This document shows, one piece after another, positions 9,547 to 15,421 of a stretch of DNA of 21,600 bases. The stretch is from positions 1-21,600 of the IMG/VR virus record IMGVR_UViG_3300049057_000072; one strand, 5' to 3'. Below the pieces are notes generated by a model that saw only the letters and a program-made list of their open reading frames with translations, searched no databases and was not told the DNA's origin. The stretch comes from a virus. The first letter of the stretch is position 1, and every line of letters begins with the position of its first letter. Position numbers and translations under genes: made by a program.

Positions 9547-10053
9547 CTACCCGAGTTGATACTTCGTAGACGACGAAACACCCACGAAGTAGGGCACGAA
9601 TGCCTTCCAGGTGATCTGAAACTCCGAGTTCGCCGGATACAGCGCACGCATTGGAAATGACGGTTGCACAACAACCACTTCGGCGTCTGCGTCCTCAGTC
9701 ATTCCATCGAACCGCACACGGAGGACTCCATGCGTGCGGGATGTATAAACCCCGGAAGGGGGAGGCAGCACAGCGTCGATCAGAGCGAGGCGCTTCGTAA
9801 TGTAGTCCGTCGCTCGCGCTGCATCCGATGCGCCTACTCCCAGGATAGCGCCCTCTGCGATGATAGTCATCGCATCCGGATAGTGGAAGGTCTTCCATTG
9901 TCCGGGGGCAGCCATCTTCTTTGCGTCATGCTGATCGATGTTCGTCGTGATGTTAAAGTCATGCAGCGGATACAGGTTGTTGCCTGATCCATCTGTGGTA
10001 TTCAATTCTACCGCACTACCTACAATGGGACGGATTTCTACCTTGGTCAGCAT
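9547..10053 (-). CDS. distal tail protein (Dit-like)
   Basis: Placed right after the tape measure gene, where distal tail (Dit) or equivalent tail-tip adaptors lie; these form the ring that closes the tail tube. The ATG at 10053 is preferred: it shares a base with the tape measure stop (TGATG) and has AGGTGG about 8 bases upstream. A GTG at 10065 would add four residues. The 168-residue product starts MLTKVEIRPIVG, is beta-rich (YPLHDFNITTN, FRFDGMT-type strands) and ends ITWKAFVPYFVG. Family assignment rests on position and size. Confidence 0.7.
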   Translation of the reverse strand: MLTKVEIRPIVGSAVELNTTDGSGNNLYPLHDFNITTNIDQHDAKKMAAPGQWKTFHYPDAMTIIAEGAILGVGASDAARATDYITKRLALIDAVLPPPSGVYTSRTHGVLRVRFDGMTEDADAEVVVVQPSFPMRALYPANSEFQITWKAFVPYFVGVSSSTKYQLG

Positions 10054-13000
10054 CAGGGATTCCACCTAGCGGTACGGGCAACGAATGCCGCCTTTCGAAT
10101 AACTTCCTCTGTGGAGGATCCCCCCGCTAGAGCGCCTGCCGCAATGTCAATCATGATCGTCTGTGAGCGGGAATTGTCGGTTGTCGTGCTTCCGCCTTTA
10201 CCCGTTGTACCCACACCGCCAGGATTCTTTGACGTTGCACCGGCAGGCTTGGCAATGGTGGGCAGCATCGGGGGAGCGGGGTTTTCGACCTTCCAATCGC
10301 TGACCGCTTTATTCACCGCTGCGTTGATCACATCGGGGAACTTGGTCTGGATCCAGCCATCGAACCATGCGCCCACCTGTGCCTGCTGGAAACCGTTGAT
10401 GATGGCCTGACCCATGTCGCCGCCCGCCTTGCGGAAACGGTTGATCTCATCCTGAAAGTCCATTTTCGTTGCGGACTTGATCTGCGTGTTGCGCCGCTTC
10501 CACTGTGAAATGAGTTGGTTCATCTGCTGCGGCGTAGCCTTGAGCATGTTCTCGATGATGGGCGAACCCTCTTCAATGCCCATATTACGAATCTCATTGA
10601 TGAACTCTGCCGGGACGCCACGCTTCATCAGCTTGTCCAGTCGTTCACGCCAGCGCGCAAACTGGTTGTTCTGCTGATTCAGATCCTTGATCATGTCCTG
10701 GATGCGCGGAGTGATACCCCATTCCTTAGCAAGATCGAATGTCTCGCTCGTAAGCCACGGCCCCTGGAATAGCTGTCCGAACGCCTGACGATTAGCGTTC
10801 TCCATGTCGATGTACATATTGCGCAGATTGTCTACTGTCTGTGTCCGCGCACGCTCTGTCTCAAGAGCCAGTTGCTTACGCCATTCCCCTGCGCGATCAC
10901 CCATCTCATCGAATTGGTCACCGAGGTCGGCAAGCGGAGTATCTAGACCGAGCAGCTTACTGATGGTAGCTTGATCACCCTTCTTGATTGCCTTGTCGAG
11001 TTTCGCCTGCCAATTCTCCCATGTCTTGACAGTATCGTTTGCCGCATCCTTATGAGCGGCCTTGACGCGAGCGAATGCAGCATTGAGATCCTGCGCTTGA
11101 CGTAGGATCACTTCTCGATTAGTACCAGGAGCGAAATCACCCGTGCGAAGCTGTCGGAAGAATTCTGCCCGGAGTTTCTTGGCCTTCTTCGGTGATTCCC
11201 GAACAAGCTGATCCAATGCCTTACTCGTCGCGTTAGCCTCTTCTCGCATATGCTGTGAAATACGGACATTTCCAAGTTCTCGCTCAAGGAAATCTTTGGC
11301 CTGACGGAACTCGTCAAAGACACCTACGCCGAATCCCGGCACATGTGTAAATGGATCGATGATCTTCAGTGCAGCATCAATCGCGCGGATCCGAAGTTCG
11401 TCCCATATATCATAGAGACGGTCGCGTGTCCGCTCCCAATGGAAGATGAACTGCTCAAGCAGTAGACCAGCGGCAACGACGAAAGCACCGATACCCGTGC
11501 TGACCAATGCCCGCTTCCACGCGAAGGAAACGCTTGTAGCCGCTACGCGATTCGCGATTGCGACGGCCGCTGCTGCGGCGATTGCCGTTGTCTTCCAGGC
11601 AATCCAGCCAAGCGCCATGATCTTGACGGCCCGCTCGATACCGACGATCTGTGTAAGCAGCACGCCTAGACCGACAAGGGGTATTGCTCTGAGAGCGGTA
11701 GCGAATGTCATCGTTGCCCCGCCAGCACCGGCAGCGGCCATCTTCCATAGCTTGAAGTGTGCTACCAGAGTCACGAGCGGGCCAGCGATACCGAGGATCA
11801 CACCCGCAACCAGGGCACCGATGGATGCCCATGCACCGAATTGGACGATTGAGTCGCGCAGACCCTCATCGAGGCTATTCCACCAATCGAGCATACCTGC
11901 GATGGCGTCACCGATACGGGCAAATACCGGGATAGCAGCCTCACCGATTTCCACCACAAGTGTCTTGAAACGGTTGACGAATACCTGCCACTGCACACCG
12001 GGATCCGCCATCAACGTCTCAAACGACCGCTGGAACTCTTTGTTATTCTCGGTCGTCTGCTTCTGAAGCTGCATGTACTGCTTGAAGTCAGAGAATACAA
12101 ACCGGAAGAATCGGCGTGCTTCTGCTGTAGACAACAGACCCTTCGTACGTGGATCCGCCGCACGTGTGACGATCTGAATGAATCGCTCCGATGCCTTGCC
12201 ACCCTTGTCGAGTTCATTGCCCCAGGCATCCATGATCTTCTTCATGACCTGCGGCAACGGCAGCAAGCGACCTTGAGCATCCTCGATGTCAACGCCTAGC
12301 TTCTGGATTCCCTTGCGGAACTCGGCGCGGCCGAGCACGTCAAACGCACGGGAGATCTGTGTGGCTGCGATACTCGCATCGCCGGTCTTCCTTGTCAGGA
12401 AAGCCATGATGCCTGCAACGTCATCGAGAGACTGACCGGATCCGTATGCGGCAGCCGCAACCTTCGGCAGCATCTCCGCGAAATCCTGGAAGCGCATACG
12501 ACCAAACCGGACAATCGAGAACATGCGGTTCAGCGTCTCTGCGACACTCTCGTTCGCACCACGGAACGTATTCAAAACGGTGATACTCGCTTTGGTTGCG
12601 GTCATCAAGTCTGTCTGTCCTGCGACCGCTGCGCGTGAGAAGGCTTCCAGAAGTCCGATACCCTCACCGATGTTCTGGACGTTGGTGGACGAGAAGATCT
12701 CGTATGTCGCCTCAGCCATCTCCTGTGCCGCAAACGGATAATCCACAGATAGACGAAGGATCGCAGCACGGAGTTGATCCGCGTTAGCCTGTGCTTCCCG
12801 TGTACCCGCGCCTATCCTGGTTACCTGCGTGGCGGCAAGACTGGCAGAACGGCTGAATTCTGCTGCTTCCCGCGCGGCAAAGCCAAAAGCGGCTGTTCCC
12901 GCAGCACCGAACAACTGCATGGTACGACCGATATTGCCGAGAGCGTGGCCGACATCGGATAGCCTCTGCGCAGGCATCGCATTGACGGCCTGATTAAAGG

Positions 13001-13571
13001 CAAGCTGCGCCCTTTGACTCTGATTGAGAGCATTGTGTGCTTCAAGCAGACGGAGATTTGCCCGCTGTTGCGCCGATGCAAAGGCGTCCGCATTAGTCCG
13101 CATCAACTGATACTGCCGGGGCAGGCGGATTACCTGTTGCTCGACCCGTCCGATGCTCTGAGCAAGTCGGTCATGACGGGTCTGCAACGATCCTACTGCC
13201 TGCTCTGCGGCACGGATATCCGCGATCATCTGTGGACTACGCGGCCCAAAGGTACCCAGAGTCGTACGTGTGCGTGCTCTCCGTACCTTATCGAGATTTG
13301 CTTGCGCTTGCGTAAGACGATCAAGCGTCATAGCCTGCTGACGAAGCAGACGGTTATGTGTCTCGATGATACTCAGAGGTCGTGCTGCTGCTTGTGCAAG
13401 CTGAAGCTGACCTAGTGCCCGCATCTTACGGAAAGTCACATCCGATTGTCGAGCCGCGATCATCTGAGCCTTGGATAGACCCGAGAACTCGGCGGACGCG
13501 CGGCGAAGCTGACGCGAGGCGAAATCCTGCGCCCGGATGATGACCATCATTTCGCCTACGCGGAGTGCCAT
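10053..13571 (-). CDS. tail tape measure protein
   Basis: The longest gene in the window (1172 residues). It sets tail length and is ejected with the DNA. Residues 20-200 are helical coiled coil; about 205-480 match the TP901/PhageMin_Tail tape measure core (SASLAATQVTRIG, FAAQEMAEATYEIFSSTNVQN, DDVAGIMAFLTRKTGDASIAATQISRAF). Hydrophobic segments at about 580-610, 630-650, 660-680 and 690-708 are probable membrane-inserting helices; the C-terminal half is again helical and charged, ending in a low-complexity G/T/K linker near 1110-1130. At about 0.15 nm per residue the tail would be roughly 175 nm. The ATG is one base past the stop of the chaperone frameshift product. Confidence 0.95.
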   Translation of the reverse strand: MALRVGEMMVIIRAQDFASRQLRRASAEFSGLSKAQMIAARQSDVTFRKMRALGQLQLAQAAARPLSIIETHNRLLRQQAMTLDRLTQAQANLDKVRRARTRTTLGTFGPRSPQMIADIRAAEQAVGSLQTRHDRLAQSIGRVEQQVIRLPRQYQLMRTNADAFASAQQRANLRLLEAHNALNQSQRAQLAFNQAVNAMPAQRLSDVGHALGNIGRTMQLFGAAGTAAFGFAAREAAEFSRSASLAATQVTRIGAGTREAQANADQLRAAILRLSVDYPFAAQEMAEATYEIFSSTNVQNIGEGIGLLEAFSRAAVAGQTDLMTATKASITVLNTFRGANESVAETLNRMFSIVRFGRMRFQDFAEMLPKVAAAAYGSGQSLDDVAGIMAFLTRKTGDASIAATQISRAFDVLGRAEFRKGIQKLGVDIEDAQGRLLPLPQVMKKIMDAWGNELDKGGKASERFIQIVTRAADPRTKGLLSTAEARRFFRFVFSDFKQYMQLQKQTTENNKEFQRSFETLMADPGVQWQVFVNRFKTLVVEIGEAAIPVFARIGDAIAGMLDWWNSLDEGLRDSIVQFGAWASIGALVAGVILGIAGPLVTLVAHFKLWKMAAAGAGGATMTFATALRAIPLVGLGVLLTQIVGIERAVKIMALGWIAWKTTAIAAAAAVAIANRVAATSVSFAWKRALVSTGIGAFVVAAGLLLEQFIFHWERTRDRLYDIWDELRIRAIDAALKIIDPFTHVPGFGVGVFDEFRQAKDFLERELGNVRISQHMREEANATSKALDQLVRESPKKAKKLRAEFFRQLRTGDFAPGTNREVILRQAQDLNAAFARVKAAHKDAANDTVKTWENWQAKLDKAIKKGDQATISKLLGLDTPLADLGDQFDEMGDRAGEWRKQLALETERARTQTVDNLRNMYIDMENANRQAFGQLFQGPWLTSETFDLAKEWGITPRIQDMIKDLNQQNNQFARWRERLDKLMKRGVPAEFINEIRNMGIEEGSPIIENMLKATPQQMNQLISQWKRRNTQIKSATKMDFQDEINRFRKAGGDMGQAIINGFQQAQVGAWFDGWIQTKFPDVINAAVNKAVSDWKVENPAPPMLPTIAKPAGATSKNPGGVGTTGKGGSTTTDNSRSQTIMIDIAAGALAGGSSTEEVIRKAAFVARTARWNP

Positions 13572-13572
13572 G

Positions 13573-14261
13573 CTAGTTCACTTTCGTCGGCGTGTGCCTC
13601 TGTCGATTCTTGTTACGAGCTTCGCCTCTGCGCTCATCCAGTTCGTCCTTGCGGGTATAGGCGGTTAGAATTGCTTCTAACCGCCTGATATCCCCCGCAG
13701 GCTGATCCAGAACTCCACCCGCACGGGGTAACACGTTCAATGCTCGACACAGGGCACCGACGCGCAACCATCGTGCGGCTTCGATTACTACGTCTCGATC
13801 AAAGAGAGATCTGGCCGATTCGTCTCGTCCGATGAGGAAGAGGAAGGCGCAGTCGGTAAAGGGCTAAGGTCTTCCTCAGCGATCTGCGTCAACTCCGTGA
13901 TGTATCTATCGATTTCCTCACCGACCTTTGGATCCAGCTTCCACGTAGACATCGGCTTGGTGAAGTCGATCTTCTGCGTTTCCGCCTCATCGACAAAGAG
14001 GTTATGATCCACGATGCAGTTGCGGAACTCGAACTCCGTCACAGAGACGTTCATGGCCTCGAAATACGCACGCAGAGTTTCCTCGTCCGTGCGCTTTCGA
14101 CCACGACCCACGGACACCTGCTGTTCCTGGTACATACGACCAGCAATGTCCTTGCGCATCTCCATCTCGTGAAAGCTGAGCGTCCGCAGTTCGACATACC
14201 CACCGGGGCATGTCTTAAGATCCCTGCGACTGGTGCCCGGATCAACCGTTGCCTTTGGCAT
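13573..14261 (-). CDS. tail assembly chaperone GT-type fusion by -1 frameshift, 229 aa
   Basis: Predicted product of ribosomes that slip -1 at the heptamer at 13857-13863. Residues 1-135 come from the first frame; the shift at L135 then reads the second frame, which is open from the slip site (begins ACC GAC TGC at 13857) to the TAG at 13573, adding 94 residues. The added part contains LFDRDVVIEAARWLRVG and ALNVLPRAGGVLDQP, conserved-looking sequence typical of the T part of chaperones, and a basic tail. The second frame lacks a good start of its own: the ATG at 13767 would lose the LFDRDVVIEAA helix. The coordinates span both parts; one base is read twice. Confidence 0.8.
13788..14261 (-). 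CDS. tail assembly chaperone (G-type), 157 aa
   Basis: Chaperone that coats the tape measure protein and recruits tail tube subunits, not found in the finished virion in characterised phages. It lies between the tail tube and tape measure genes, as expected. The N-terminal part (residues 18-60) has VELRTLSFHEMEMRKDIAGRM, a common opening for siphophage G-type proteins, and the end is a disordered serine and aspartate-rich tail (SPLPTAPSSSSSDET). The frame-zero stop is at 13788. GGAGAGGAAAG lies upstream of the ATG, which shares a base with the stop of the 46-aa gene (TAATG). Confidence 0.85.
   Translation of the reverse strand: MPKATVDPGTSRRDLKTCPGGYVELRTLSFHEMEMRKDIAGRMYQEQQVSVGRGRKRTDEETLRAYFEAMNVSVTEFEFRNCIVDHNLFVDEAETQKIDFTKPMSTWKLDPKVGEEIDRYITELTQIAEEDLSPLPTAPSSSSSDETNRPDLSLIET
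13857..13863 (-). promoter_or_regulatory. -1 programmed frameshift slippery heptamer C CCT TTA
   Basis: On the minus strand the frame-zero codons AGC CCT TTA contain CCCTTTA, an exact XXXYYYZ heptamer in the correct frame for tandem slippage of the P- and A-site tRNAs (CCT to CCC, TTA to TTT). The -1 frame is open from here to 13573. No strong stem-loop is obvious just downstream. Confidence 0.75.
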
Positions 14262-14431: not shown

Positions 14432-15421
14432 TTATGTAATGTTGGCCGGTGACTTGACCTCGATCTCATAGGCATCGCCAGCGGCGATCCCGACCATGCG
14501 GCCGGTAAATCCAGCCATGATCAGGTCGGGCATGCCTTCGAGAGCGACATCGTAGGCGTCATAGCTAACACGGTTGCCCTGTAGCTTGATACCCGACGTG
14601 GCCGCTGCGAAGGTCGCACCACCGTTGGTCGATTCCAGCTTGATCGCCCTCTGTGCGTTGTTGACGAAGTTCGTGTACTCCGTCTTATCGATGAAGTCGA
14701 GTTCGGACTCGATCTCGGCTTCAGTCTCACCGAAGGAGATGTAGCTTGCCTGACGATCTGCACGGATTCGGTTCTGCGGTTCCGCGTTGTAGTTCGCGCG
14801 GAACGTGAATCCGTTGAAGTCGTTCGACACAGCGCCGAATGCGGGAACGGCTGCCGAAGCTGCCACGTAGACACGGTGTGCATCTGCGCCGAGCAGATCC
14901 GGCGTAACCCATGTGGGCGACGGAGCCGCCTGTGTCGCCTCGGCAAGTCCGAGTACGTCGAGAGAGCACCGTAGCACAGCATCCTCAATCGAGAACTCGA
15001 AGCTACCAGCAACACAGCCGGTATACCCGAAGACCACGTTGTTGCGGACGACCGTGATCGAAAGCGTCTTCGGTGTAGTAGCACCTGTCGCTGTCGATGC
15101 CGAACCCGCCGACGAAGGCGTGAACTTGTAAACAAACGGGCCAGCCCCCGACTTCGCGATAGTATGCCGAGAAGCATACATCCAATACGGGAAGTTCGTC
15201 GGATCAACTTCCATGTTTATCGTACCCTCGACGTGATAGTAACCGGGCTTCACGTCGGAGACGATTGTCTGCTGCCTGATCTGCGGAGAGTAATACTTCT
15301 CTTCCGAGTACATCAGGGATTCATCGAGAATCGGGACGAAGATGGTCGGGGCAACATAGGTGCCCATCACCGTCTCGAACCCGATGCCTACCTTACCACC
15401 ACCACCGAGTCCAGCGGGCAT
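14432..15421 (-). CDS. major tail (tube) protein
   Basis: A 329-residue protein between the tail terminator region and the chaperone genes, the standard place for the tail tube subunit, which stacks in hexameric rings around the tape measure. It shows typical features: N-terminal AGLGGGGKVGIGFET with TYVAPTIFVPILDES, a central FSIEDAVLRCSLDVLG strand pair, and repeated beta-strand stretches with EGTINMEVDPTNFPYW. A stop/start TAATG overlaps the previous gene. The length is at the long end for single-domain tube proteins, so a surface-exposed extra domain, perhaps around 90-120 (AGSASTATGATT), is possible. Confidence 0.85.
   Translation of the reverse strand: MPAGLGGGGKVGIGFETVMGTYVAPTIFVPILDESLMYSEEKYYSPQIRQQTIVSDVKPGYYHVEGTINMEVDPTNFPYWMYASRHTIAKSGAGPFVYKFTPSSAGSASTATGATTPKTLSITVVRNNVVFGYTGCVAGSFEFSIEDAVLRCSLDVLGLAEATQAAPSPTWVTPDLLGADAHRVYVAASAAVPAFGAVSNDFNGFTFRANYNAEPQNRIRADRQASYISFGETEAEIESELDFIDKTEYTNFVNNAQRAIKLESTNGGATFAAATSGIKLQGNRVSYDAYDVALEGMPDLIMAGFTGRMVGIAAGDAYEIEVKSPANIT

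Follow-up and report, generated by a model that had tools for sequence, protein, structure and literature searches.

In bacteriophage lambda the tail assembly chaperones G and GT are made from overlapping frames with a -1 frameshift. In the lambda model the tape measure protein is a partner of both G and GT, the tube protein is recruited by T, and a proportion of 30:1 between the two products is important (PMC5009743). A joined coding sequence, named as pre-TMP frameshift protein or tail assembly chaperone, is also annotated in the records of the Rhodococcus phages ReqiDocB7 (GU580940) and Perlina (PP782351). The earlier note on this DNA treated frameshifted tail chaperones as established knowledge, and we agree that the mechanism has been known for a long time.

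The window analysed here comprises positions 1-21,600 of the IMG/VR record IMGVR_UViG_3300049057_000072, a stretch of 21,600 nucleotides from an uncultured phage. Two overlapping frames, G and T, lie in it between the genes of the tail tube and the tape measure protein, and the order tail tube - G/T - tape measure, in which a chaperone pair takes this position, is found in the relatives as well (Table 1). We are highly confident that G and T form a tail assembly chaperone pair like lambda G/GT and that the pair relies on -1 programmed ribosomal frameshifting for its expression.

Table 1. Features of the G/T locus and its neighbours in the window
Feature	Positions	Strand	Description
G ORF	13788..14261	-	157 aa, 0-frame product; stop TAG 13790-13788; tail assembly chaperone (predicted)
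Slippery heptamer C_CCT_TTA (X_XXY_YYZ)	13857..13863	-	G codons 134-135 and the base before them
TAG closing the -1 frame directly 5' of the heptamer	13864..13866	-	
T part	13573..13857	-	-1 frame after the putative slip, TDCAFLFL...LNVLPRAGGVLDQPAG...; 94 aa and stop
Predicted GT fusion	13573..14261	-	229 aa; translation with the reading frame set back by one base at the heptamer
Tape measure protein	10053..13571	-	1172 aa; begins just past the T stop; PhageMin_Tail E 3.8e-23
Tail tube protein	14432..15421	-	upstream of G; Phage_tube_2 E 4.5e-23

The tape measure gene of the window also matches PHROG tape measure families. Between the tail tube gene and G (14401-14261, minus strand) there is a 46-aa ORF rich in Gly, Lys and Arg (MPVRKTKGGGYKYGSKGKEYRGKGAKAKAAKQGRAIKASQHRRGKK), the stop of which overlaps the G start (TAATG). 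Its homologues occupy the same place in the loci L007, L027 and L031 and are absent from the other relatives; searches of Pfam and NCBIfam with this ORF gave no match. At the other end of the window, a single ORF on the plus strand (8-2305) joins a uracil-DNA glycosylase superfamily domain to a 3'-5' exonuclease and a family A DNA polymerase.

The earlier note had read CCCTTTA at 13857 in frame as C_CCT_TTA, followed by a second frame in the -1 register that stays open to 13573. Our translation bears out both the register and the open frame, and the location also stands with one small correction, namely that 13857 is the last base of the heptamer. The heptamer lies in the 0 frame of the G ORF, conforms to the X_XXY_YYZ pattern and is the single occurrence of CCCTTTA on the minus strand of the window. 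From the heptamer the -1 frame stays open past the G stop as far as the TAG at 13575-13573; it encodes a conserved domain and holds ALNVLPRAGGVLDQP, the sequence by which the T part had been recognised. A TAG directly in front of the heptamer closes this frame, which leaves the heptamer itself and the approximately 70 nt up to the G stop as the only places where the frame can change. Under tandem slippage the predicted junction would read ...DLSPL-TDCAF....

One could argue that T is a separate gene, which has its own start or is reached by termination-reinitiation past the G stop and needs no frameshift. There is a codon that could serve this purpose: the first ATG, GTG or TTG of the T frame is TTG 13767, about 20 nt beyond the G stop, and it opens an ORF of 64 aa. 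However, this TTG encodes the Leu of a conserved WLR and lies within a conserved helix, therefore a start there would remove the N-terminus of T. Additionally, the T frames of the close relatives L017-L039 contain no ATG, GTG or TTG in the scanned part, which extends to about 10 codons beyond the start of the match. A separate gene would also leave unexplained why the heptamer is retained and why it switches only to other slippery heptamers. We consider an independently started T very unlikely.

In-frame X_XXY_YYZ words occur 10 times per 5547 codons in the genes of the window, which gives a probability of about 4% for one chance site across the 25-codon overlap of G and T. The site of the window could therefore be due to chance alone and is by itself suggestive, whereas the relatives make the case overwhelming, and it is the comparison with them that settles the reading. 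Searches of IMG/VR yielded 15 loci with relatives of G and 61 with relatives of T, on contigs that are partly shared. An X_XXY_YYZ heptamer is present at the same codons in all 16 other close relatives examined (CCCTTTG in 13, AAATTTT in 3). CCCTTTG belongs to the main group (L002-L008, L017-L034), and AAATTTT, seen in L035, L036 and L039, to the divergent sister group L035-L039, in which Pro-Leu has become Asn-Phe and the slipperiness has been retained. The earlier note had asked for conservation of the heptamer and had named its loss in close relatives that keep both frames as the refuting case; we found no such relative, the only changes being those to other X_XXY_YYZ words.

The choice of codons points in the same direction. 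In the 14 genes of the CCCTTT type (the window and 13 relatives) the pair CCT-TTR, preceded by C, is invariant, and elsewhere in the same genes CCT makes up 21% of the Pro codons and TTR 16% of the Leu codons. If the slip takes place at the heptamer, only its final base contributes to translation in the -1 frame, so the coding of T offers no explanation for the constancy of CCT-TTR. The slippery site is conserved beyond the needs of the protein. The T frame past the G stop evolves as a coding sequence, with differences of 0.36/0.27/0.65 at codon positions 1/2/3, a pattern that shows selection on T.

The same comparison bears on the notion that the heptamer is there by chance and that the change of frame is a sequencing or assembly error splitting one gene. 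The window does come from a single metagenomic contig, and the chance estimate given above leaves some room for such a coincidence. However, the overlapping two-frame layout is repeated in independent contigs from many samples, which makes an error very unlikely, and the close relatives have their 0-frame stop at a similar distance beyond the heptamer. We give this explanation next to no credence. The frame could alternatively be changed during transcription instead of translation, and some of the related loci carry runs, such as AAAAAAC. Transcriptional slippage typically requires long runs of A or T, yet the homopolymers of CCCTTTA and CCCTTTG are no longer than three, and we regard it as a highly improbable source of the frame change.

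RNA stimulators, either a downstream hairpin or pseudoknot or an upstream SD-like sequence, are common at -1 frameshift sites, but they are not obligatory. RNAalifold detected no pseudoknot-free structure around the heptamer that is shared across the relatives, and the folding energy is ordinary (MFE z -0.9). An SD-like GAGGA is located about 10 nt upstream of the heptamer in most close relatives; it resembled a conserved stimulator, but synonymous shuffles pair just as well with the anti-SD. Regarding the heptamer itself, a study of heptamers in E. coli (PMC4066793) reports that those with UUN as the second codon and those with X and Z bases of the same class are on average more prone to shifting. 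CCCUUUA fits this trend.

The identity of the two proteins had been proposed from sequence reading, and it is now supported by the gene order and by the T profile, which matches the T-parts of the annotated pre-TMP frameshift proteins of ReqiDocB7 (E 1.8e-6) and Perlina (E 4.9e-9). The AlphaFold model of G has a mean pLDDT of 75.5 and is of low confidence from residue 128 on, around the slip site. Its best match in the PDB is the tail assembly chaperone of HK97, 2ob9, with weak scores (E 1.6, TM 0.37-0.56), and several of its top matches in BFVD are named tail assembly chaperones, also with weak scores; no fold match of G in PDB or BFVD has an E value below 0.001. The T model is all-helical with a pLDDT of 92.9, and its structural matches are unnamed. 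The G and T of the window have no identifying match in Pfam, NCBIfam or PHROGs. The relatives touch PHROGs weakly, and phrog_9001, 'tail assembly chaperone', matches weakly one close relative and ReqiDocB7. No counterpart of the window's G or T turned up when cultured phages were searched at the nucleotide and protein levels, and the distant T queries L043 and L071 likewise found nothing. The G profile retrieved no relative from the GTDB genome contigs, therefore the host could not be named.

Searching with the T profile led to T-parts with the motif LPxxGG[VL]LDQPA in distant phages, where they are joined to a short G of about 92 aa. We compared 45 distinct T-parts, defined by the LPxxGG[VL]LDQ motif and by less than 85% identity over the core. 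An in-register heptamer is present in 43-44 of them, L069 being doubtful and L113 lacking one, and the chance expectation is about 1.2 per 43 T-parts. The heptamers are of eight types, among them CCCTTTG, AAATTTT, CCCAAAA and GGGAAAC, and the tree requires at least 11 switches; as this tree was built quickly and many of its forks are weak, the count is approximate. The 0-frame stop of the far group follows the heptamer immediately or after one codon. The clade of the window and the far clade are bridged by L115 and L116, both of which carry GGGAAAC, and the G of L115 is homologous to that of the window (hhalign E 2.7e-22). A profile comparison of the window-clade G with the short far-clade G detected no relation. 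It could well be, and we hold the chances to be even, that T represents a widespread and largely uncatalogued family, joined by -1 frameshifting to at least two unrelated-looking G families, in which the type of the heptamer switches freely and recoding is almost never lost. If this is true, T is an exchangeable module, and what remains constant is its expression as a minor frameshift fusion.

Six members of the far group (L040, L043, L050, L058, L062 and L076) carry exactly CCCTTTA at the site. They have a GAG codon six codons ahead of CCT, possibly an SD-type stimulator, and their 0 frame ends in a TGA one codon beyond the heptamer. In Rhizobium phage vB_RleS_L338C (L122; KF614509.1 20854-24973, at about 1779-2165) a G-like ORF stops just past GGGAAAC. 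Ahead of the tape measure gene the -1 frame is open and contains ILPEEGGLLSQPA; the annotation has hypothetical proteins only. This locus is probably an unannotated frameshift.

We propose that most ribosomes would translate G through to its stop. In a minority of them the tRNAs on CCT and TTA would slip together one base back, onto CCC and TTT, and these ribosomes would continue in the -1 frame to produce GT, whose T domain is helical. If the pair works as it does in lambda, G would bind the tape measure protein, as would GT through its G part, and T would recruit tail tube subunits, the efficiency of the slip setting the ratio of G to GT.

CCCTTTA was also considered as a slip site in SPP1 and rejected, for the paper gives UUUUUUC for gene 17.5 and CCCTTTA occurs in a terminator sequence. 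In the literature searched, which did not cover the survey of Xu et al. 2004, we found no tail chaperone with CCCTTTA/CCCUUUA as its slip site. The mechanism is not new; this phage adds a member to it, with an uncatalogued chaperone family. What is gained is a comparatively well-supported frameshift site together with such a family from uncultured phages, and the observation that slippery heptamers turn over while the recoding event persists. Additionally, the T motif could guide annotators to the overlooked second half of such genes, as in vB_RleS_L338C. Among solved structures the HK97 chaperone 2ob9 is the closest to the G model, but the likeness is weak (9% identity). ReqiDocB7 and Perlina share with the window the T domain with its LP.AGG..DQ motif, the -1 frame and the downstream tape measure gene; their G family is different (no match to A3; phrog_3096), and their junction reads CTG GAA AAA TAA, where no standard X_XXY_YYZ was found. 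The locus differs from lambda G/GT in its heptamer, CCCTTTA, and in having a G and a T that Pfam and NCBIfam do not recognise. With lambda it shares the two overlapping frames between the tail tube and tape measure genes, and, as we read it, the -1 shift towards the end of G and a T that would be produced only as a fusion.
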